Source: a virus | IMG/VR virus record: IMGVR_UViG_3300037360_000157 | Coordinates: 1-34,533 of that record | Direction: 5' to 3' (one strand) | Length of the DNA stretch: 34,533 nucleotides | Shown: piece after piece, positions 1-34,533 of the stretch | How positions within the stretch are numbered: position 1 is the stretch's first letter | Layout: each line of letters starts with the position of its first letter | Made by a program: the position numbers and the translations under genes | Notes under the pieces: model-generated | The model's input: the letters and a program-made list of their open reading frames with translations, nothing else | The model's database searches: none | Told to the model about the DNA's origin: nothing

Positions 1-95
1 TTTTCAGTCGATTCAGGTTAGATTCTTCATCGACGTTCCAGAACGTTGTCCTGGATCATTTGATGGGCGGAGACGATGGTGTTCCTGGACTTGGC
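1..95. repeat. Terminal direct repeat, left copy
   Basis: The first 95 bases are repeated without a difference at the right end (34439-34533). This is the usual sign of a contig from a circular or terminally redundant genome. The sequence alone cannot separate a real short terminal repeat from an assembler k-mer overlap. Collapsing it gives a circle of 34438 bp. Confidence 0.95.
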
Positions 96-190
96 TGTGT
101 TGTGTAACACAGGAGATTCCTGTTAACGCGACTTCTGAGTCGTTGTCCAGCTCAGAAAGGCTTTATGGTTTCACAGGGAAACCACGACGG

Positions 191-215
191 GATGCAGGCT
201 CTGGTGGCCTGCATC
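191..215. other. Perfect 9-bp stem hairpin in the non-coding region
   Basis: GATGCAGGC (191-199) and GCCTGCATC (207-215) are perfect reverse complements around a 7-nt loop. No T run follows on either strand, so an ordinary intrinsic terminator is unlikely. A structural or protein-binding role in the non-coding region is more likely. Confidence 0.7.
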
Positions 216-302
216 TGGCAGAGTCGACAATTGAAGAAATGCGATTCGCTGATCGTTGATTGCTGACAGTTAATTCCAGATCAAGGTCGTTAACAATGTT
301 AA

Positions 303-328
303 CATTGACGACGAGGAACGACGACAAT
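303..328 (+). repeat. 26-bp direct repeat, copy 1 (iteron-like)
   Basis: A 26-bp sequence beginning CATTGACGACGAGG and ending ACGACAAT is found here and again at 523-548, identical and in the same orientation, 220 bp apart. Copy 1 directly follows two GTTAAC sites (289-294, 298-303). Repeats of this size in a non-coding region resemble iterons or binding sites for a phage replication or partition protein; that role is inferred. Confidence 0.85.
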
Positions 329-386
329 TAATCCAGCTCTGGTGGTAGAGTCGACCAGACAACGTATGGAAAATCTCGCGAGGGTC

Positions 387-477
387 CGCGCGCTCTTTCT
401 TCTTTCTTAAGATCTAGATCTCCCAGTTAACAGCGACGACGATTAACGACGACCGATGTTAACTGGTCTTAAGCGCG
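387..477. repeat. Branched inverted repeat / potential cruciform
   Basis: CCAGTTAAC (423-431) pairs with GTTAACTGG (458-466). Further out, CTTAAG (406-411) pairs with CTTAAG (468-473) and CGCG (389-392) with CGCG (474-477). The left arm carries a pyrimidine-rich bulge and an internal 12-bp palindrome AGATCTAGATCT (410-421). The loop holds a duplicated ACGACGA/TTAACGACGAC pattern. The whole could extrude as a branched cruciform or fold as RNA. Confidence 0.6.
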
Positions 478-522
478 TGACGACGCATTGGAAGTTTTTC
501 AATGACAGTCGCAACGACTCAT

Positions 523-548
523 CATTGACGACGAGGAACGACGACAAT
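523..548 (+). repeat. 26-bp direct repeat, copy 2 (iteron-like)
   Basis: Identical to 303-328 in the same orientation. The flanking sequences differ after the first few bases (ATTAATCC after copy 1, CAATTAAC after copy 2), so this is a short conserved element rather than part of a larger duplication. Confidence 0.85.
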
Positions 549-923
549 CAATTAACTGCCTCATCCGGTGGTATTGGCAGCTGACCCAGTGGTAATCGGC
601 TGGTTCGCGCAGGCACGATCAAAAGAACTTAACATCGTGCAGGCGTCTCCGTGTACCCGCTTAAGAAAAGTTCTTAATGTTTCCGATCTAGCGGGCCCGC
701 GAAGTGAGCAACGAAACGTTCAACGCTAGCAACATCCAGGTCCTGTCGAGTCCTGTACACTGAGATGAAATTGCTGATAGTATCCGGTATGATGGACACC
801 GAAGCAATCCGCATCATCGATGTTGATCATAACAATTCATCGATCAATTACGATGCACAAGAATCACAGACCGCCCCAGGAATCGCTCAAACGAACGTGT
901 GGTTAGAGTATCAGTTCAGGGCA

Positions 924-949
924 TGAAAAGCGATCTCGATCGATCGTCG
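924..949 (+). repeat. 26-bp perfect inverted repeat, left-hand arm (partner 34419-34444)
   Basis: These 26 bases, which include AAAAGCGATCTCGATCG, are the exact reverse complement of 34419-34444. On the circular genome the two arms face each other across about 0.92 kb of non-coding DNA. Pairing stops on both sides (923 and 950 do not match), so the arm length is 26 bp. Each arm also contains a GATCGATC palindrome. Similar paired arms occur at recombination sites, element ends and replication-fork structures; no enzyme that would act on them is recognised. Confidence 0.85.
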
Positions 950-1040
950 TTGCACGATCGACCGTCTCTGGTATGTCAATCAAGAGGCTTGAAGTTGCAA
1001 AGCAATCAAGAAGAGGATGACGTTCAACGCATTGAAGAGA

Positions 1041-1069
1041 TTGATGTCTTTTTCAGTTTGTGGTAGATA
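1041..1069 (+). promoter_or_regulatory. Candidate sigma70-type promoter for the 1118-1899 operon
   Basis: TTGATG (1041-1046) and TAGATA (1064-1069) are separated by 17 nt, with a TG one base upstream of the -10 hexamer (TGGTAGATA), as in an extended -10 promoter. It lies about 50 bp before the ATG at 1118 on the correct strand. The hexamers are imperfect and the call rests on spacing and position. Confidence 0.35.
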
Positions 1070-1070
1070 G

Positions 1071-1091
1071 TTATCAACAAGTGGTGAATAA
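1071..1091. promoter_or_regulatory. Two DnaA-box-like 9-mers, opposed
   Basis: TTATCAACA (1071-1079, plus) and TTATTCACC (reverse complement of 1083-1091) each differ by one base from the DnaA-box consensus TTATNCACA and lie 3 bp apart between the hairpin region and the first gene. Two one-mismatch matches can arise by chance; with the adjacent repeat region they fit, but do not prove, a DnaA-dependent origin. Confidence 0.2.
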
Positions 1092-1117
1092 CCATCCACT
1101 CGCAACGGAGAAGAGAA

Positions 1118-1504
1118 ATGAACGACAAAGAACTCAACAGCCTGATCGAACGACTCACTGCAAAGGTGCAGCGCGATGCTGTGCTAGCACAGCAGTTCAC
1201 GACAAACAAGAACGATGGATTGAAACACTGGGCTCGCAAGCACGTTTGCAAGAGCTTAGGATTCAGCTACCATGACGTGGCACATGCCGAGGATGCCAAC
1301 GTTCTCAACACGGTCGTTGTCGATGAGGCGAATGACATGGAACGAATGAAGAATGAGATCGAAACGTACAAGCGAAGGGCTGCACACAGGAGCAACAAAA
1401 AGGTCGTCAGCGAACGCGATCAACGTGTTGAACGCCTCAACACGATCATCCAGGACTTCGTCGGTGCATTGTCCAAGGAACTAGAACTGGACGGTGACAA
1501 GTGA
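1118..1504 (+). CDS. Hypothetical protein, paralogue of the next gene
   Basis: 128 aa, mostly helical and charged. The ATG at 1118 has a good ribosome-binding site (GGAGAAG, 8 nt spacer). I recognise no family. It appears homologous to the gene downstream: a YHDVAHA motif (51-57), KNE (78-80), NKK (93-95) and a C-terminal AL..ELE helix are matched in order by PHDIANA, KNE, NKK and RLVIDLE there, with similar spacing. A duplicated gene pair beside the origin-like region and transcribed against the virion operon suggests an early, regulatory or replication-accessory role; this is inference. Its 17-nt leader (1105-1121) is identical to that before the plus-strand gene at 13935. Confidence 0.8.
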   Translation: MNDKELNSLIERLTAKVQRDAVLAQQFTTNKNDGLKHWARKHVCKSLGFSYHDVAHAEDANVLNTVVVDEANDMERMKNEIETYKRRAAHRSNKKVVSERDQRVERLNTIIQDFVGALSKELELDGDK

Positions 1505-1899
1505 ATCGTCGAGAACAATGGATGGGTTGTTGGACGACAACGTACATCGCCGAGCTTCTCAATCGAGTCGGAATCAAGTGTCAACCCCATGACATCGCAA
1601 ACGCAAAGAAGGTCGGCCACGTCGACGTTGCAGTGCATTGCTTCGATGATGAGCTCGATGTCCTCACAAGGATCAAGAATGAATTCATTGAACACAGGCG
1701 ACTCATTCCACTGCGATTGGCAAACAAGAAGTTCATCACGGTGGATCGGTTGCGAATGATTGGTGCAGTGTATGAAGCAGCTGAGAGGCTCGTCATCGAC
1801 CTTGAGAAAAACATGCCAGATCGCGTGGAAGCGACGTGCAGCGAATCGTTCAATGATCTAAAGAATTCGATACAGCGTTTGAAGGACCTTCGATTCTGA
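1501..1899 (+). CDS. Hypothetical protein, diverged tandem paralogue
   Basis: 132 aa, starting with GTG inside a GTGA overlap with the stop of the upstream gene, so its translation is probably coupled. The region WTTTYIAELLNRVGIKCQPH to about residue 95 aligns by eye with the preceding protein: PHDIANA (29-35), KNE (59-61), NKK (75-77), then a helix ending in LE. The C-terminal 35 residues (SESFNDLKNSIQRLKDLRF end) have no counterpart. Function unknown. It converges on the end of the minus-strand virion operon, with a hairpin terminator between. Confidence 0.8.
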   Translation: MNRREQWMGCWTTTYIAELLNRVGIKCQPHDIANAKKVGHVDVAVHCFDDELDVLTRIKNEFIEHRRLIPLRLANKKFITVDRLRMIGAVYEAAERLVIDLEKNMPDRVEATCSESFNDLKNSIQRLKDLRF

Positions 1900-13951: not shown

Positions 13952-14300
13952 GGTCTCGTGGTTCACCGGCGTCATCGTGGCGCTGGCAATGGCAAGCACT
14001 CATTGTGGTGGCGCCGTGGAGAATGCCACCGATGCCCAACGAGGTGTTGAGGACGATAGGGACGCAGCTGATTCGCAGGATGCGAATCACGTACACCGAT
14101 GCTCGTACGTGTACGATGCCACTTATTCCAGTTCTGGATTGTTATCGTTTGCCGGCGTGGGTGATTGTGATGTCACACCCCCTAGGGGTCAGTGCACTCC
14201 GTTCGTACCAAGCCTGGCCGCTGACGGTGGCGCTGAGTTTGTGTGTCTATCTGACGGACCGGGGAGGTTTGACGATGCGGCGACGACCTTTCGATTCTAG
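13935..14300 (+). CDS. Putative exported cysteine-containing protein
   Basis: 121 aa, ATG at 13935 with GGAGAAG 8 nt upstream. Residues 1-24 look like a signal sequence: short polar start with Lys6, hydrophobic core WFTGVIVALAMA, then STHC. Cys24 is where a lipoprotein cysteine would be, but the preceding STH does not fit a normal lipobox, so type I cleavage after AMA is equally possible. Four more cysteines (56, 78, 87, 104) suggest disulphides outside the cytoplasm. Such small exported phage proteins include superinfection-exclusion and outer spanin-like proteins; neither family is recognised. The plus-strand setting within virion genes makes it a moron-type cassette candidate. Confidence 0.65.
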   Translation: MTTIDKVSWFTGVIVALAMASTHCGGAVENATDAQRGVEDDRDAADSQDANHVHRCSYVYDATYSSSGLLSFAGVGDCDVTPPRGQCTPFVPSLAADGGAEFVCLSDGPGRFDDAATTFRF

Positions 14301-14316
14301 GATCGAACGTTCGATC
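14301..14316. terminator. Perfect 16-bp palindrome between convergent genes
   Basis: GATCGAACGTTCGATC is a perfect palindrome starting the base after the stop of the plus-strand gene (14300) and overlapping the stop of the minus-strand fibre gene (14315-14317). Position argues for a two-way transcription stop. It lacks a loop and a T run, so it could instead be a binding site for a dimeric protein. Confidence 0.4.
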
Positions 14317-17300
14317 ACATGATCGAATGATTGATCATGATTTGCCAGTCTGCCGTGAACACGCCACTGCCAGAATTGGCACCTGACATGTACAACGTTA
14401 TCGTGTTGCCGCTTGGTACCAACGAAAACACCGGAGGACTGTAACCGCCCACGCCGACGCATGGGCCATTGACGACGACGTTGCTCGTCCAACCGCTTGA
14501 ATAATACCATGTATTGATGTATGAAACGCCGCTTATTGGAGCGCTAGCACCGGCCGTAGGTCTACCCAAGTAGTGTATTTCAAATGCAATGACCGTGTTA
14601 GACGTCGGTGCAGTGACGGTTAATATTGGCGAGTTGCTTGAGACCGTGTTGCTTCCCGTCCATTGCCTGTTCAGCCATTGTTGTTGTTGGATCGGCGTGG
14701 CGAAAGTGCTCTGGGCCGACGGGACGCTGCCCAGCGCCGTCGTGATGGGTCCGTACGGGTTGTAGTGGTAGAGTTGACCGGTCTGAGCGTTGTTGTAGAC
14801 GTTGCAGGCGCCGCCGTAGCTCGTCAGAGTGGGTGCCGATGCAGCGGGTTCCCACAGCAACGTTGAGGTCGAATCGTACCAGAACCACCTCGTCGACGCC
14901 GTCGGCGCGCCTGCGCTACCGATGACGAACGCGTTGTTCGTGACGGCCAGACCGGTGCATACGCCGGCTCCTCCGCCGATGATGATGTCGTTCGCTGCGA
15001 TGCCGGTGATGTAGAGCGTCGGTGTGTCGACGAAGCCGCTAGCATAGTAGTACGTTACGTATGCGTTTGTCCAATAATTTGATGACAGGCCGATGTTTCC
15101 GTTGTTGTTCGTCACGGGATAGAACGACGGCGTGGTGTCGTTGTACAGGACCTTCGTAGACGCAAACGGTGCCGTGGCGCTGCCGCAGAGGAACGTGTTG
15201 TTTCCCATCAAGACGCCTGAAACCGCAGAGCCGGTGCCACCGCCGTAGAGGACTGCATACTGAGAGACGCCGGTCAGCGTCAGGTATTGTATGAATGCCT
15301 GGTACCAAACGGCTGCAGCCGATCCCAATCCGCCGGTGTCGGTCGTGATTGGAGCGATCGTGACAGTGTTGTTGTTCGTGTTGATGCTGAACCTTGCAGC
15401 GGATGACGTGTTGTAGAAGTAGATCGTATCGACATACATCTGCGACGTCGTCCCGTTCGCTATCGACGTGCCACCACCGAGGTTGAACATTGCACTCTGG
15501 TTGTTCGACTTTCCATAGCCACCTCGAAGGACCAGAGTGCCGCCAGTCGTGTTGGTCGCAGCCGACGTGTACGCGTTCTGGGCCTGGATGGTCATCGCGT
15601 TCGTGACGACGTCCGTCGTCTGGCCCTGTTGAATCAACTCTGGAGACGATGTCGTCTTTGTCCAGACGAACGCTGCGTTGGCACCGGCGATTCCATTGAC
15701 GTAGTTTGCGTTGCTCAGGCCGTCGACGTCGCCTGACAGAGTTATGGATCCACCACCCGTTGCTGACACCGTCAAGGCTGAACCGGCTCCTGAATCAGTG
15801 AGCGTTATTCCGGTTCCTGCCGTGATCGTTCGAGCGTTTGGCAGCGATCCCGTTGCGGCCAACAGGATGAACTCTGCACCGGTCTCCGGCTTGGCAGAGC
15901 TGATAACGACCGTCGTTCCGGTCGTTGTCGCCATGGTGCCGTTTGATCCGATGATATTCTGGACGGTGGGAAGCGTTCCTGAGATGACGTAGTCCGACCC
16001 GGCGTTCGTGACCCGAATTCCACCCGAACCCGAGATGTTGGTCACCGTTTGAGCGGATCCTGAGACGTAGACCGTCGATCCGCCGCTCCCAGTCGTGACG
16101 CTGACGCCGCCGACGCCAAAGAAATTGTAGAGCGATCCGCTCAGAGTGAAGTAGCTGTGTGTATTATCGACGGTGACCGTCTGCGTGTTGCTCGTGATCT
16201 GCGGCACGTTTCCTGACAGCGTGAACCTCGATCCAGAATCAGCAACGACACCGATCGACGCCGTGTTTGCTGACACGACTTGAAACACCGACGATGAAAC
16301 GACGGTGGTCGACCCTGAGAACAACAGCAACACCGACGTGCCACCCGAACCCGAGATGTTGGTCACCGTTTGAGCGGATCCTGAGACGTAGACCGTCGAT
16401 CCGCCGCTCCCGGTCGTGACGCTGACGCCGCCGACGCCAAAGAAATTGTAGAGCGATCCACTCAGAGTGAAGTAGCTGTGTGTATTATCGACGGTGACCA
16501 TCTGCGTGTTGCTCGTGATCTGCGGCACGTTTCCCGACAGCGTGAACCTCGATCCAGAATCAGCAACGACACCGATCGACGCCGTGTTTGCTGACACGAC
16601 TTGAAACACCGACGATGAAACGACGGTGGTCGACCCTGAGAACAACAGCCGCACCGACGTGCCACCCGATCCTGTCAACCACGTGTTTGATGCTGATAAT
16701 ATCAGCGACCTGTTGCCATACGAATTCGTTCCCGTCAAGAGGTACACCGAACCCGTGGCAGCGAGGACCCACGAGTTGGGAAGCCCGGCGTCAGACGATT
16801 CCAGAACGTACGATGCATTCGCATCCGCAGCGTTCTGAAGGGGTACGTTGATGGTGTAGTTGGATCCAGAGCTGGAGACCTGCGCGAGACCCAGACCCGA
16901 TATGTTATGCACGCCCACGGACGACGACACCGTGAAGTAGCTGCCCGTTTGATCGACTGAGACAGACGTGCCGCCCACGCCCGCGACCTGCACGACGTTT
17001 CCCGACAACGTGAACCTCGATCCGCTGTCCTCAACGACGTTGATGAATGAATTTGTTGAATCCAGCTGGACGATGGACGACGACAACACGAAGCTGGTCG
17101 AACCGCTGTTCTCCATGACGCTGGTACCGCCGACCGCACTGATGGCGACGACCGACCCTGAGATCACCAACGACCCACTGGCCATAGATACAACAACGCT
17201 GCCCTCGCCGACCGCCACGATCGAACGTGGGAGGGCGGGATTTGCCTCGCCGAGGACGTACGCTGCGTTTGGATCAGCAAAGCTGGACGTTGTTGACGAG

Positions 17301-23962: not shown

Positions 23963-25878
23963 GATGCTGCCCCAACCGTGCCTGGTACCCCAGCCGGGCC
24001 GCCTGCTGGTCCACCAACCGGAGGTGGCGGGGGCGACATCGCCGCTGTCAATTGAGCCAGCTTCTGTGCCACCACGGTCGACATCGTCGTCGTGTCGATG
24101 CAGCTGTTGAGAAAATCGACGAGCAGGTCGATCGTTCGCTTGTCTTCATCGTTGTTGAACGCTTTGTTGATCTCCTCAACGACGATCTGAACCACGATCG
24201 ATTGGTCAGTGGCGAGGAGGAACTCGTCCGCCGTTCCTGGTTTCTGTTCCTCAAGGATTTCGTCGATGATCTTGTCCAGTCGATCGAACTGGCTCGTGAA
24301 CCGTTCCAGGACGCCGTCCGGATCAGGAATGTCGAGCTGTTGGGCCATGACCTCACGCGACATCAGGCCCTGCTGTGCCATTTCGTTGATCAAAGCGAAC
24401 CTACCAGAGGGCGTGTTCGGCAGGTTTGCGGATGGCATTGCCTTGACCTGATAACAATCGGCAGCGACGCTGGCATCCTTCCACTTGATTCCTTCGAGGA
24501 ACTTGCGACCCTGAACCCTGATGTTGAATCCCTGGGTCTCTGCATCGATCCTGACGAGCTCGATCATCATCTTCGTCGCCTCGCTGTGAAGTCGATCCCA
24601 CTGCTTCATGTAGTCACTGAGCCTGACCGATTGAGTGTCCCTGTACTCACGCTGAGCCGCTCCACTGGCATTGGGACCCAACGGAGTTGAAGCGTTGACA
24701 GAACCCTCGTTGAGACCGATCAGTTGAAACGCAAACTCGTGCTGCCACTGAAGCCAGGGAATGAAGTCCTGGGGTTGGATCGATGGAATGATCAGAGGAA
24801 TGGGCTGTCCCATTGCGTTGTTGTACGGAATCAGAGCGCCTGGCCTGCTGTAGATCTCCTGGCTGATCATGTTTTCTTCTGGAACGAGGATCCTGGGCAT
24901 TGCCACCATCGCCATCGATTCGACGAAGTATTGACAGCACTGGTTGATGTGGTTCTGCAGGCCAAAGAGCTGCTGAGCGATTCCTGTTCCCCAGTACGAT
25001 TGCTGCGACTCTCGCCACCTGATCGGTATGAGTGGAAAGCTTTCCAGCATCCAGGATTCATCGACCAACGTGCAGGTCGAACAACACGCGACGTGTCTAC
25101 CATCGTTTGCACCGGGTGCTGAAGGCAGGCGCCATGCCTCGATGATGGTGACGTTGTTTGAAAGGCTGGACGATCGAGCGCCGACGGTTGACACGGCGGT
25201 CAGCTTGTTCCTCGTCGCCTTCGCGATCAGCTCGGCCTGTTTGGGAAACGCCTGGCACAGCGATATGACATCGTTCATCGTGCACAGCATCTGTTCTCGA
25301 GGTCGCATCATCGATCCTTGAACGTGATCGACGAGAACGTCTCCTGGCCACACGTTCTCGCAACGGGGATTGCCGAACATGTCGGTGTAACAGTACAGGA
25401 ACCCGGTTCCACAGACGAGCGAATCCTTTCCTGCTCGTGGAGCCATGACGTCCAACGACGATTGCGTCTTGCATCCGTCGGCGAACTGTCCGAGCTTCTT
25501 GCACTGGCGCGATAGCTTTCCGCCTCCGTTCGTGGGAAGTATCCTGATCCGTGGCGGGTCCTTGAACACCTGGTTGACGACGGCGTCGACTGCGCTGCCG
25601 ATGACGTTGTGAGTGACCATCAGTTCATCCGCTGACGTGTCCATGGCTCGAACGCCGTTCATTGCAACGTTGAACGTGTCCTCGTACTTTGCTGCGTACA
25701 TTCGAAAGATGTTGTTTCTCGCCTGGTTGTAGCGAAGGATGTCCTTCGCCTCGGTGAAGACGGCGTTGTAGACGTCTTTCTTTGGTTGCATCCACCACGC
25801 ATATGAGAGACTGTTTGATAGAACTGATTCGTCGAAGTTGAACTTGATTCCGTTATCACCGTTGTCACCGTTTTCCAT
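23959..25878 (-). CDS. Portal protein
   Basis: 639 aa, ATG at 25878 one base after the upstream stop. The portal is the dodecameric ring at the capsid vertex through which DNA enters and leaves. Supporting features: a helical N-terminal wing (YAWWMQPKKDVYNAVFTEA), VWPGDVLVDHVQG (about 176-188) as in the clip/wing of portals, WGTGIAQQLFGLQNHINQC (about 294-312), and the region GLNEGSVNAS with TPLGPNASGAAQREYRD (about 395-420), which matches the N-x-x-S-G-A..R element before the long stem helix VRLSDYMKQWDRLHSEAT. A coiled acidic C-terminus and a Pro-rich tail (PPPPPVGGPAGG) follow. Size is in the range for short-tailed phages. Confidence 0.85.
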   Translation of the reverse strand: MENGDNGDNGIKFNFDESVLSNSLSYAWWMQPKKDVYNAVFTEAKDILRYNQARNNIFRMYAAKYEDTFNVAMNGVRAMDTSADELMVTHNVIGSAVDAVVNQVFKDPPRIRILPTNGGGKLSRQCKKLGQFADGCKTQSSLDVMAPRAGKDSLVCGTGFLYCYTDMFGNPRCENVWPGDVLVDHVQGSMMRPREQMLCTMNDVISLCQAFPKQAELIAKATRNKLTAVSTVGARSSSLSNNVTIIEAWRLPSAPGANDGRHVACCSTCTLVDESWMLESFPLIPIRWRESQQSYWGTGIAQQLFGLQNHINQCCQYFVESMAMVAMPRILVPEENMISQEIYSRPGALIPYNNAMGQPIPLIIPSIQPQDFIPWLQWQHEFAFQLIGLNEGSVNASTPLGPNASGAAQREYRDTQSVRLSDYMKQWDRLHSEATKMMIELVRIDAETQGFNIRVQGRKFLEGIKWKDASVAADCYQVKAMPSANLPNTPSGRFALINEMAQQGLMSREVMAQQLDIPDPDGVLERFTSQFDRLDKIIDEILEEQKPGTADEFLLATDQSIVVQIVVEEINKAFNNDEDKRTIDLLVDFLNSCIDTTTMSTVVAQKLAQLTAAMSPPPPPVGGPAGGPAGVPGTVGAAS

Positions 25879-28633: not shown

Positions 28634-30796
28634 TTATTGAACCGTCAATGCCAATCCAACCGCAGGTGCAGTGCTCACCAACGTGCCACCAGCAGGAAAC
28701 GTTGCAGGCATTGCTCCGGCTGAGAGTCCCGTGACCTTCCACGCAATCGGCGTCGTGGTCGTACCTGCTATCAACCAATTCGGAAGGTACTTGTTCGGAC
28801 CCGTGATTGCTTGTATGGTGCTGGCCGTCGTTCCCAGGGAATCAACCTTGAGCACGATCCAATACAGACCAGGCGGGCCTATCGTATTTGTGGACGAATT
28901 TATCGTCTTCATTCCTGACGTTGTACCAAGAGCAACGGCACCGCCACCCGTGTATTCACTCGACGCCGCGAACGTTTTTGGGTATCCAGTGAATGATAGA
29001 TCGTCATAGATCGCCATTCTGACGTTCGATCCTGCGGTCGCCGGTGCGTTCGTTTGAAACAAATAGACACTTGTGCAGAACACCGTGGTGTCCGTGATAA
29101 AGATCGGCATGGCAAACATGTCGCCGGCAACGCACGTGTAGGGCGTTCCTGCCCACGATGTGTATTCTGGAAGGTAGATCTGAGGTGAAGAGGTATTGAC
29201 GCTTGTCTTGACGATGGGACGACGATCGGCCAAAACAAACGGTATTGGCGAGACCGACGTCTCACACGAACCCATCGGTTGTCTATCGATCGCTTCCTCG
29301 CATAGCGATAACGCGGCCTGAACGATTGCCTGAGCACACCGTTGATAACCGAGGTTGTTTGGATGCAGACCATCCCAAGCGAAGTATGTGTAGATGTTCG
29401 TTGGAAAGCTAGCGTCCGTCTCGCCATGAAACAGCGCTGCGTCAAAGTCAGCGACTTGAACCATCGATCCAAACTGTGCGACTGCATTTGCAATCGCGGT
29501 GTTCCAACCCGCAACGTCAGCCTGAGCAGCAACGTGGTTTGCAGGCGTTGCTCCAGAGAAGTCCGTGTTTGCCCCGTAATATCCACATGCATAACCGTTA
29601 AGCGTACGTTGAATAGAATATTTGATGCTCGTTGATGAATTGTTTGCAGTCTTGCTCAACGTGATGGACGTGGTGCTACCAACAGCTGATATCGTCGTTC
29701 CTGATTGAATCGCATTTTGAGAATCGAGCTCAACGATCGATCCGTTGACGTCAGTGCCCGACAAAAAGTTGGCAACGTTGCTCGTGAAGGTCGTTGTTCC
29801 ATTCGTCACGCCGTCACCGAACGACATCGTGATCTGTCGACACGGCAACTGGGGCATGTTGCACACGATGACAGGCGAGGGTTTGAAGCTCTCGATCCAA
29901 CACCCATCGACGTAACACGTTGCTCCTGAGATCGTCGTGATCTTGAGGTTGATCGTTTGACCTGCGTTTGCAGCACTCAATCCGTTTGTTGCAGCGGTGA
30001 ACCTGACAGGAACTGGAGCAGCAGCGGCGGTGGCACCGGCGCCAAAGTTTGGTGTGGCGGTGTTTTGCAGGTTAGTCGTCAGACCAACGATTCCGGTCGT
30101 TCCTGTGATCGTGCCACCCCACGTAACGATCAACGTGTTTGTCGTGCCATTGAATCCGACGAGGTTGAAACAAATTGGTTCCCCTTGGTAACCCGAGGGG
30201 ATCGTGAACGTCGCCGTCGACGTACCAGACGAATCGACGGCAGTTGCTTGAATCGCAAATCCTGACGTGAAATCGGCGGCTGAAAGCGCTGAGTTCGAAA
30301 AGTTTGTTCCGTGGGCCCATTGAGCGCTGTTTGCACACAGAAACACCTGCGATGCTCTGCACCTGGAGATCAACGTGGTGTATGTATTTGTGCACACGGT
30401 CTGCAACAGCGTCTGAGCCATGCCAGTTGCCGCAAACCCGACGTCATTGACTCCCCAATGAAAGAGATAACAACCACCCGTTCGACCATACGGTGGCAAC
30501 GGTGTGGGTTTCCTGATCTCGTTCAACGCCTTTGCGTAGCCACCCTGTTGCCATCCTGCCTCCGTAAGAACGGCGCCATTGCGACCGTGATTGATGACGT
30601 TTTCTTTTGGAATCCCAAGCGCTCTAGCGGCCAAGAATTGCATTGAATAATCATCTGACCACTGAACGATGTAATTTCCTCCCTGAGGATTCGTACCGTT
30701 GATTGAATTCTGAAAGTACGAATGTCCAAAGCACTCCAACCCATTGATCGGTACCGGATGAACCAGAGGCATCGATGTTGTCAGCGTCGTTGGCAT
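28634..30796 (-). CDS. SGNH/GDSL-hydrolase virion protein
   Basis: 720 aa, ATG in a TAATG overlap with the fibre stop. The SGNH blocks are visible: I CFGHSYF with Ser26 (GDS replaced by GHS), II NHGRNG (69-74), III HWGVND (113-118, Gly115 and Asn117) and V WDGLHPN (474-480, Asp475 and His478). Blocks III and V are 360 residues apart, with two beta domains inserted (about 180-305, and 320-400), so the catalytic domain is split. Residues 500-720 form another beta domain. Such enzymes on phage fibres remove acyl or acetyl groups from surface polysaccharides. Position after the main fibre makes it a receptor-processing tail protein. Confidence 0.8.
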   Translation of the reverse strand: MPTTLTTSMPLVHPVPINGLECFGHSYFQNSINGTNPQGGNYIVQWSDDYSMQFLAARALGIPKENVINHGRNGAVLTEAGWQQGGYAKALNEIRKPTPLPPYGRTGGCYLFHWGVNDVGFAATGMAQTLLQTVCTNTYTTLISRCRASQVFLCANSAQWAHGTNFSNSALSAADFTSGFAIQATAVDSSGTSTATFTIPSGYQGEPICFNLVGFNGTTNTLIVTWGGTITGTTGIVGLTTNLQNTATPNFGAGATAAAAPVPVRFTAATNGLSAANAGQTINLKITTISGATCYVDGCWIESFKPSPVIVCNMPQLPCRQITMSFGDGVTNGTTTFTSNVANFLSGTDVNGSIVELDSQNAIQSGTTISAVGSTTSITLSKTANNSSTSIKYSIQRTLNGYACGYYGANTDFSGATPANHVAAQADVAGWNTAIANAVAQFGSMVQVADFDAALFHGETDASFPTNIYTYFAWDGLHPNNLGYQRCAQAIVQAALSLCEEAIDRQPMGSCETSVSPIPFVLADRRPIVKTSVNTSSPQIYLPEYTSWAGTPYTCVAGDMFAMPIFITDTTVFCTSVYLFQTNAPATAGSNVRMAIYDDLSFTGYPKTFAASSEYTGGGAVALGTTSGMKTINSSTNTIGPPGLYWIVLKVDSLGTTASTIQAITGPNKYLPNWLIAGTTTTPIAWKVTGLSAGAMPATFPAGGTLVSTAPAVGLALTVQ

Positions 30797-33700
30797 TAGT
30801 TGATCACGGTCACAACGACCGTTCCTCCCGCGGCACTTGAGATCGCGGTGATTTGACCAAGTGCGACATCATCAAAGTACGTTCCCCCTGTCCCATCGTT
30901 TGCCGCAGAGCCTGCTGACAATGCGAGATGGTACGCAGTCGAAGTCGGTGTCTGACCGTTGAACGCAAGGTAGATCTTCGTCGTTCCCGTGTTCTGGATT
31001 CTGATCTGCTTACACTCCCCGCCGGCATAGATGCCAACTGGTGTCGTGCCGACGACATACTGGTACGGAGTAGATGCAACGAATCCGATCACGCTGTGCG
31101 TCTTTGTCACCGGATTCGGAATGATCTGTATCAACATGTCCAGCATCAACTGAATGTTCGTGTTCAGCAGATCGAGCATGTCGTATTCGCGTTTGTTAGC
31201 GAAGAAGAGTTCGTTGTTTCCGCCCGTCGTCGCCGCCGATATCGCTAATGGCAGGCTCGTGCCGGGCACCGTTCCAGCGATCGTCAGAGGTGGCGTGTTC
31301 GGCGAGACCTGAACGACGATCGACTGATCAGCCGCCGTCGCAACCTGACCGGATGTCTTAATTGCAGCACCGATTGAAAGTGGCTCCCCGCCGTAGCCGG
31401 ATGCGACCTCGACCCGATTTTGGTTGGCCACATAGACGATGTCCACAACCAGCGACGCCGACGTTGTCACGTTTCCTAGTGTGTTGACTCCAATCACTCC
31501 GTACAGCGTCGTGTAGGCGTTTGGAATCCTCGTGTTGACGAACGCCAACAACGTGAATTGCGCGGTGTTAGGCGGCGCAACCTCGAGCGAAACGGCCGTC
31601 TGCGTGAGCGAGATCTTGTAGACGAGCGATTGCGTGTTCAGAAAGCCCGTTGGTAGCGTCAACACCTGACTCAACGTCTCAGACGTCGCCGACGATCCAG
31701 CGGTCACGAGCCTGATCTGGTTCGTCGCCAGTGTACTGTCGATCTGAACCGTTATTTGCGTTTGCGGCGACGAGTAGCTGTCTTGCAGACCAAAGTACGC
31801 ATACTGATTTGCGGCCGTCGCGAGGCCTGGAACGTACTGCGCCGTGACGAACAATTGCATGGGCGCGTAGTCAAGAGATCGTGCGACAACGGTGTTGTTG
31901 CCACCGCTGACGGTTCCAGACACAATCAAATTCGACGAAGCAACAGAAACCAATCCACTCGTTGCCGCAATGAACCAATTGCTGACGCTTCCGGGGTTCG
32001 TCAATGTCCCCCCTGGGTACCCACTGACGAGTGTCAAAGACGTGTTGCTTTGAACCGAAGCGACTTGCGTCAAGTAGAAGTCAAAATCACTCGACAACTT
32101 GACGTATTGATATTGTTGAACGGTCGATAGGAATGATGTCCCTGTTCCGGTGACGGACGTTGACCCGTTCGTGAATGTGCACGTTCCGATCGACGACTCC
32201 AACGACGATCCGAAGAACGAATCTCGGAACCCGAGCTCGTCTGTCAGCACCGTGCCACGGGTCATTAAGTTCCCACTAGGATCTGAGTACAACGTTGTTC
32301 CAATCGTCGGAACGACTTCAATTGGATTAGGATAATAATCCTGCGTCGTCAGAAGCAAATTGACTGAACCGCTTACACCGACAGTTCCTTGTTGCGTAAC
32401 GAACACAGATCCAGAAACTGCTTGTGGGCCAGAAGTGTAGACGCTCGTTCCACCCGTTGGTGGCGTCGTTGAAACAGATCCAGAAACGTTGATCGTCGCC
32501 GGCCAGTTCGTGATCGCCGCAGAAACTGATCCTGAAATTCCCTGCAAACCTGAAGTGAATACGTTCACAGACCCAGTCACAGATTGTGGACCGGATGTAT
32601 ACGAAGGGCCAGTGATTGACGTCAACGTTCCGCTGACACCGATGATAGCAGGCCAATTCGTTATCGTTGCGCCAACAGATCCTGACACTGCCTGAGGACC
32701 GGATGTGTAGACACTGGTTCCGCCGATGGGAAGCGTCGAGACCGTGCCTGAGATGCCCTGAAGACCGCTCGTGAAGATGTTAACCGATCCTGAGATTCCC
32801 TGCAAACCTGATGTGTAGACGTTCGTTCCACCTGCTTGAGGAAGGTTGCTGATCGAAACAGATCCAGAGACGCCGACGGTCGCTGGCCAGTTCGTAATAG
32901 CGACAGATCCAGACACGTTCTGAGGACCGGATGTGTAGACGCTCGTTCCACCCGTTGGTGGCGTCGTTGAAACAGATCCAGAAACGTTGATCGTCGCCGG
33001 CCAGTTCGTAAGAGCGACTGATCCTGAGATTCCCTGCAATCCAGAGGTGTAGACGTTCGTTCCACCAGATTGTCCAGTCGTCGCAACGGTTCCTGAAATA
33101 CCGATGACCGCCGGCCAATTCGTGATCGCCGCGGAAACTGAACCGCTTATTCCTTGCAAACCTGAGGTGTAGACGTTAACAGATCCAGTCACCGCTTGCG
33201 GTCCGGATGTGTATGAAGATCCAGGCGTTGACGTCAACGTACCAGAAACGCCGATGATTGCCGGCCAATTCGTGAGTGCAACCGACCCAGATACAGCCTG
33301 AATTCCGGAGGTGTACACACTGGTCCCACCGATGGGAAGCGTCGAGACCGTGCCTGAGATGCCCTGAGGGCCTGATGTGTAGACGTTCACGGACCCGGTC
33401 ACAGCTTGAGGACCTGATGTGTATGAAGGACCAGATATTGATGTCAACGTACCAGAAACGCCGATGATTGCCGGCCAATTCGTTATCGTCGTTGGCTGGT
33501 TCACAGGCAAGTTGTTGATGTTGACTGCACCGCTGACCAACTGAGCGCCGCTGGTGTAGACGTTGAGACCACCCGTGAAAGGCGTCGTTGAAACCGTTCC
33601 TGAAATGCCGATGACCGCAGGCCAATTCGTGAGTGCAACCGACCCTGAGATTCCCTGCAATCCAGAGGTGTAGACGTTCGTTGGACCAGGCGTTGAAACG

Positions 33701-34365
33701 AACGTGCCGCTGACGCCGATCACAGCAGGCCAATTCGTTATTGTCGTTGATTGATTGACTGGAAAGTTCGCTACGCTGACGCTTCCGCTGATTCCCTGAA
33801 GGCCACTCGTGTAGACGTTCGTTCCACCCGCTTGAGGAAAGTTGCTGATCGAAACAGATCCAGAGACGCCGACGGTCGCTGGCCAATTCGTCAACGTAAC
33901 GGGCTGGTTCGCTGGAAAGTTCGCTACGCTGACGCTTCCGCTGATTCCCTGAAGACCTGAGGTGTAGACGTTCGCTGCAGGAATGCTTGACACCACGATC
34001 GATCCAGACACCGCCTGAATTCCGGAGGTGTACACACTGGTCCCGCCGATTGGAAGCGTCGAGACCGTGCCAGAGACCGACTGAGGGCCGCTGGTGAAGA
34101 CGTTGACCGATCCGCTGATTCCTTGAGGACCTGAGGTGAATGCGTTGACGTCTCCGTAGATGAATTGAATTGGAGGAAAGTTTGTCACCGCAACGTTTGG
34201 CAAAAACGTTCCGCTGATTACGGCGACCGTCGACAGCGACCCTGTCACCCACAACGCTCCGCTGGAGTCTAGATTGAGTGGATGAGGACTGGGATTTCCA
34301 TTAACATCCAACGTCATTGCATGAGAAACGTTGTCAATCAACGATGGTGGTAGCAAATTCGCCAT
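30796..34365 (-). CDS. Long tail fibre with YTSG/VSGSV repeats
   Basis: 1189 aa, start at 34365 (MANLLPPSLIDNVSHAMTLD) without a clear ribosome-binding site. Residues about 60-660 contain roughly two dozen units of the type NVYTSGLQGISGSV alternating with ITNWPAVIGVSGTV, one pair per about 35-45 residues; many units are nearly identical at DNA level. This is a flexible or triple-stranded beta shaft. Residues about 690-1189 are non-repetitive and include LGFRDSFFGSSLESSIGTCTF and a beta domain ending IRIQNTGTTKIYLAFNGQTP, then GTVVVTVIN, probably the receptor-binding head. It is the first gene of the minus operon and is followed by the coupled SGNH protein. Confidence 0.8.
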   Translation of the reverse strand: MANLLPPSLIDNVSHAMTLDVNGNPSPHPLNLDSSGALWVTGSLSTVAVISGTFLPNVAVTNFPPIQFIYGDVNAFTSGPQGISGSVNVFTSGPQSVSGTVSTLPIGGTSVYTSGIQAVSGSIVVSSIPAANVYTSGLQGISGSVSVANFPANQPVTLTNWPATVGVSGSVSISNFPQAGGTNVYTSGLQGISGSVSVANFPVNQSTTITNWPAVIGVSGTFVSTPGPTNVYTSGLQGISGSVALTNWPAVIGISGTVSTTPFTGGLNVYTSGAQLVSGAVNINNLPVNQPTTITNWPAIIGVSGTLTSISGPSYTSGPQAVTGSVNVYTSGPQGISGTVSTLPIGGTSVYTSGIQAVSGSVALTNWPAIIGVSGTLTSTPGSSYTSGPQAVTGSVNVYTSGLQGISGSVSAAITNWPAVIGISGTVATTGQSGGTNVYTSGLQGISGSVALTNWPATINVSGSVSTTPPTGGTSVYTSGPQNVSGSVAITNWPATVGVSGSVSISNLPQAGGTNVYTSGLQGISGSVNIFTSGLQGISGTVSTLPIGGTSVYTSGPQAVSGSVGATITNWPAIIGVSGTLTSITGPSYTSGPQSVTGSVNVFTSGLQGISGSVSAAITNWPATINVSGSVSTTPPTGGTSVYTSGPQAVSGSVFVTQQGTVGVSGSVNLLLTTQDYYPNPIEVVPTIGTTLYSDPSGNLMTRGTVLTDELGFRDSFFGSSLESSIGTCTFTNGSTSVTGTGTSFLSTVQQYQYVKLSSDFDFYLTQVASVQSNTSLTLVSGYPGGTLTNPGSVSNWFIAATSGLVSVASSNLIVSGTVSGGNNTVVARSLDYAPMQLFVTAQYVPGLATAANQYAYFGLQDSYSSPQTQITVQIDSTLATNQIRLVTAGSSATSETLSQVLTLPTGFLNTQSLVYKISLTQTAVSLEVAPPNTAQFTLLAFVNTRIPNAYTTLYGVIGVNTLGNVTTSASLVVDIVYVANQNRVEVASGYGGEPLSIGAAIKTSGQVATAADQSIVVQVSPNTPPLTIAGTVPGTSLPLAISAATTGGNNELFFANKREYDMLDLLNTNIQLMLDMLIQIIPNPVTKTHSVIGFVASTPYQYVVGTTPVGIYAGGECKQIRIQNTGTTKIYLAFNGQTPTSTAYHLALSAGSAANDGTGGTYFDDVALGQITAISSAAGGTVVVTVIN

Positions 34366-34438
34366 ATCACATATGTAGGTCGTCCTGAAGAATTCTGGAC
34401 AGACAATGTGGTTTGTTTCGACGATCGATCGAGATCGC
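34366..34438. other. Non-coding stretch upstream of the fibre gene
   Basis: About 73 bp unique sequence before the terminal repeat. It includes CATATG palindrome (34372-34377), an EcoRI-type GAATTC, and the start of the inverted-repeat arm. No credible promoter could be picked by eye, although the fibre operon must start here or farther upstream. Confidence 0.5.
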
Positions 34439-34444
34439 TTTTCA
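34419..34444 (-). repeat. 26-bp perfect inverted repeat, right-hand arm (partner 924-949)
   Basis: Exact reverse complement of 924-949. Its last six bases already belong to the terminal direct repeat, so on the circle the arm spans the contig junction (34419-34438 joined to 1-6). Together the arms bracket about 0.92 kb of non-coding DNA. Confidence 0.85.
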
Positions 34445-34533
34445 GTCGATTCAGGTTAGATTCTTCATCGACGTTCCAGAACGTTGTCCTGGATCATTTG
34501 ATGGGCGGAGACGATGGTGTTCCTGGACTTGGC
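34439..34533. repeat. Terminal direct repeat, right copy
   Basis: Identical to bases 1-95. It indicates completeness of the genome; see left copy. Confidence 0.95.

Follow-up and report, generated by a model that had tools for sequence, protein, structure and literature searches.

Why would a tailed phage carry two perfect copies of a 26-nt sequence, in opposite orientations, at the edges of the longest gene-free region of its genome? The case arises in the window, i.e. the whole stretch of 34,533 nt analysed here, whose ends share an exact overlap of 95 bp (1-95 = 34439-34533), so that the closed unit has 34,438 bp. Direct comparison and a repeat search both show that the arms, at 34419-34444 and 924-949, are exact reverse complements over 26 nt, as the initial annotation had claimed. 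They are paired across the contig junction and 917 bp separate them after closure, in agreement with the spacing of ~0.92 kb given there.

34419..34444, minus strand: arm 1, reading TGAAAAGCGATCTCGATCGATCGTCG on this strand, outward-facing, exact match
924..949, plus strand: arm 2, reading TGAAAAGCGATCTCGATCGATCGTCG on this strand, outward-facing, exact match
1..95, no strand assigned: left copy of the terminal overlap, exact match
34439..34533, no strand assigned: right copy of the overlap, the same sequence as 1-95

The inverted repeat and its place between two gene blocks

The identity of the arms is not a matter of chance, because a pair of this length is expected only about 1e-4 times per genome. 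This figure was extrapolated from 20 order-4 Markov copies of the genome, in which the longest inverted repeat had 14-18 nt and the mean count of inverted repeats fell from 1.7 at lengths of at least 16 nt to 0.26 at lengths of at least 18 nt, i.e. about sixfold per two bases. Within 1 kb the expectation is about twenty times lower. The identity ends abruptly at the arm edges, with no appreciable similarity outside them, and the best other match to the arm anywhere in the genome reaches 18/26. A genome with only two copies is what one would expect if just two transcription units require the site. As a separate observation, the arms include GATC, a word with 395 sites in the genome against 131 predicted by base composition, and CGATCG occurs 53 times across the whole window.

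The gene set taken from the ORF list has 24 genes, 22 of them leftward and two rightward. The leftward block covers ~32 kb, from 34365 down to 2170, and encodes a terminase (Terminase_6N; phrog_2, E 3.5e-37), a P22-like portal, an internal-virion-type protein and repeat-rich tail proteins, together with a GDSL-like tail protein whose match lies below the cut-off. Read outwards, the two arms are one and the same sequence, each copy pointing towards the first gene of its own divergent block. The leftward block starts with the ATG at 34365, 53 nt downstream of arm 1, and the rightward gene pair starts with the ATG at 1118, 168 nt downstream of arm 2. This arrangement had been overlooked in the initial annotation.

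30796..34365, minus strand: leftward gene 1, repeat-rich tail protein of 1189 aa
1118..1504, plus strand: rightward gene 1, 128 aa, predicted to be helical, without a family match at the cut-off
1501..1899, plus strand: rightward gene 2, 132 aa, without a family match, helical in a model of low confidence
1..923, no strand assigned: gene-free interior, analysed for GC, hairpins and folding
303..332, plus strand: 30-nt repeat, copy a, CATTGACGACGAGGAACGACGACAATTAAT
431..460, plus strand: 30-nt repeat, copy b (70%), lying in a hairpin loop closed by the stem CCAGTTAAC/GTTAACTGG
523..552, plus strand: 30-nt repeat, copy c (97%), from the repeat search
122..463, no strand assigned: cluster of five GTTAAC palindromes (at 122, 289, 298, 426 and 458), from word counts

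The single-sequence structure models of both rightward genes are of too low a quality to serve as search queries. The first leftward gene contains many diverged repeats of ~100-190 nt and resembles a tail or adhesin protein.

The intergenic region between the two blocks has 1,190 bp (34366..34438 plus 1..1117) and is the longest in the genome. To call it the only long gene-free region of a densely packed genome, as was done initially, overstates the case somewhat, since uncalled gaps of 584 bp (the next longest), 399, 359 and 270 bp occur elsewhere. The ORF list has no frame of at least 60 aa inside 1-1023. The interior has a GC content of ~48%, against ~55% elsewhere in the genome, and its 930 bp hold eight perfect hairpins of at least 7 bp, compared with a median of one and a maximum of five in other windows of 930 bp. 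The remainder of the genome has just five more GTTAAC sites. The words TGTTAA and GTTAAC are enriched in the interior over the remaining genome, and this enrichment of GTTAAC/TTAA is partly expected for non-coding sequence.

Proposed paired control sites and a probable origin

We favour the interpretation of this locus as a control and probable origin region, in which the same promoter, operator or initiator site would occur twice, as the two arms. The arms would thus be a single 26-bp cis-acting element, present twice and facing outwards at both edges of the main intergenic region, each copy just upstream of one divergent transcription unit, i.e. the leftward structural block or the small rightward pair. 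The two units would be regulated in step through a single protein that recognises both arms, whether this is a transcription factor, a replication initiator or an unusual polymerase or sigma factor. The likely origin would be the interior, where the three 30-nt repeats and the GTTAAC cluster lie and the GC content is lower. The sequence itself shows the identity of the arms, the way they face relative to the genes, and the repeats, from which binding, promoter activity and the origin are inferred. We give this interpretation a probability of about 0.4, and hold it there because we recognised no cognate protein and have both arms in one sequence only.

Several observations are consistent with paired control sites. 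The region is the longest intergenic gap, it is AT-richer, its repeats and palindromes are enriched over the remaining genome, and two sibling assemblies have arm 1 without any change despite a nearby substitution. Against them counts the gene content, since no phage RNA polymerase, helicase, initiator or known regulator was recognised among the 24 called genes. Sigma-70-like -35/-10 pairs neither overlap the arms nor lie next to them, and their count is no higher than in shuffles. The perfect complementarity of the arms would be explained equally well by a structured RNA or by a packaging terminus. As for the origin, the region shares repeated sites, AT-richness and an intergenic position with iteron origins, and the divergent blocks and hairpins also fit the origin boundary proposed in the initial annotation. 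On the other side, no initiator was recognised among the called genes and there is no skew switch at the region. The cumulative GC skew, advocated earlier as a means to locate the origin, points away from it, its detrended minimum being at ~7.2 kb, outside the intergenic region. We also considered the arms as terminators and discarded this, since the inward reading gives a 5-bp stem followed by CTTTT, which is too weak and in the wrong orientation for either block.

Divergent control and origin regions of tailed phages are exemplified by the lambda immunity/ori region and the T7 left end. Like the locus studied here, these have divergent blocks separated by a single long stretch without genes, in which dyads and repeated sites occur; unlike them, the locus has no recognised regulator, initiator or polymerase, and it has perfect 26-bp arms 917 bp apart. 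Promoters of T7-type single-subunit polymerases, of ~23 bp, are sometimes found as identical copies upstream of transcription units. The arms resemble them in being long and identical and in their position, yet there are only two copies and the called genes have no match to a single-subunit RNA polymerase in Pfam. Should the arms prove to be paired control sites, they would offer a handle on expression and replication in a lineage without recognised genes for either replication or transcription. As it stands, the locus looks like an orderly and ordinary control region. It should also be recorded that in this closed tailed-phage genome of 34.4 kb no replication, recombination or transcription gene was recognised among the 24 called genes. 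Either such genes have diverged beyond recognition or a replication part is missing from the circle.

Alternative accounts of the region

One might suppose instead that a structured RNA of ~970 nt fills the region, its ends closed by a 26-bp helix of the paired arms, which might be a stem for RNase III processing of the kind that surrounds ribosomal RNA precursors. We regard this, the main alternative, as unlikely. The interior folds better than its shuffles (z of ~ -3.6 on both strands; with the arms, -3.7 and -5.4), the excess of hairpins described above points the same way, and in the ensemble of either strand the pairing probability of the arms is close to 1. But such arm pairing follows from the inverted repeat as such, because any inverted repeat would pair, and palindromes at the DNA level produce the same folding signal. 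Because the fold scores without the arms are equal on both strands, they indicate no RNA strand; an apparent preference for the minus strand (20 shuffles, z of -6.1 vs -2.5) was gone for the interior once the arms had been set apart. The region has no match in Rfam, GOLLD and ROOL included, and a permissive threshold yielded chance matches only. GOLLD and ROOL are ornate RNAs encoded by phages, large (GOLLD often over 800 nt) and highly structured, and of unknown function (PMC12286853). An RNA at this locus would be like them in being phage-encoded, large and highly structured; unlike them, the region has no tRNA genes nearby, no Rfam match and no strand preference in folding. That it encodes a new kind of giant phage RNA, ~970 nt long, unrelated to GOLLD and ROOL and closed by a perfect 26-bp helix, seems to us improbable. 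If it did, the short list of giant phage RNAs would grow by one class.

The other alternatives concern the arms and the contig ends. The region might be a packaging terminus. The genome would then be linear, with the 95 bp as a genuine direct repeat at its two ends, and the cut would fall within arm 1. The exact end repeat indeed starts inside arm 1, with which it shares six bases, the contigs of two siblings (L004 and L005) both stop nearby, at window position 34525, and in T7 the terminal repeat is similarly followed by a long gene-free stretch with short repeats. This account is quite unlikely in our view, and it keeps that much probability because the terminal overlap could be real. It gives arm 2 no role and the siblings end at 34525, not at 34533. 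The right end of the contig, 34533, lies exactly 127 nt past 34406, the only strain difference nearby, as would fit an assembler with k=127 merging two strains and leaving the 95 bp as the assembly overlap of a circle. This is suggestive only, because the same rule fails at the other contig ends that we checked. The terminal 95 bp may be either an assembly overlap or a real terminal repeat. One arm could also be a recent and functionless copy of the other, made by chance through template switching or conversion. Such an event would leave perfect identity with abrupt edges, and nothing indicates constraint on arm 2. Yet it would have to place both copies at matching outward positions before two divergent blocks, and arm 1 is unchanged in the siblings, though this carries little weight at low divergence; we think such a copying event improbable too.

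The initial annotation had also raised an invertible segment and a cruciform. Site-specific recombination between the arms could invert the segment and thereby switch the expression of the flanking blocks, and one would then look for what is present here, a gene-free segment that could carry promoters, flanked by long and perfect inverted arms. Invertible segments of the Din family have crossover sites of 26 bp, and here too inverted arms of this length lie ~1 kb apart; unlike those segments, this one has no gene, no recombinase and no orientation variants in the assemblies. The earlier remark that no recombinase is recognised holds, both among the called genes and in genome searches with Phage_integrase (PF00589) and Resolvase (PF00239), which gave no match while the controls worked. 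A recombinase of the host might act on the arms instead. A frequently inverting segment should nevertheless break contigs at the inner edge of an arm, and three independent assemblies cross arm 1 without such a break, in a single orientation, running 81-89 nt past it (arm 2 is seen once). Since the searches gave neither an integrase nor a resolvase and the three assemblies agree in orientation at arm 1, we consider inversion very improbable indeed. A cruciform was rejected as implausible because its loop would have 917 bases.

Relatives and strain variation

This phage is previously unseen. Searching viral contigs with the terminase gave only three near-identical siblings, and phage and plasmid DNA yielded no further informative relative. 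No relative covering both arms was obtained with the terminase in viral and GTDB contigs, with patterns of the arm, the overlap, the repeat and a 20-nt core in viral contigs, or with the first rightward gene as query. The terminase aligns with those of distant phages, whose loci have no other gene in common with the window; the only further match is weak (26%), to a phage stabilization protein in L010. We found nothing specific in the literature on related ideas. The search for conserved paired arms in related genomes, proposed earlier, bears on one arm only. Arm 1 is identical in L004 and L005, which differ from the window by a substitution at 34406, 13 nt outside the arm, and at such low divergence this says little. 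The siblings have no coverage over 96-1117 and none of them spans arm 2, which is hence known from the window only.

The siblings also differ from the window far from the arms. At 16020-16640 the window carries an in-frame tandem duplication of 321 bp, with copies 99% alike, inside the gene for a 1081-aa protein. Two sibling sequences (L001 and L002) have a single copy; this may reflect true variation or a collapse during assembly. L002 further shows clustered changes or small indels near 24000 (24000-24030) and no similarity around 14083-14313, the latter probably a strain-variable stretch.
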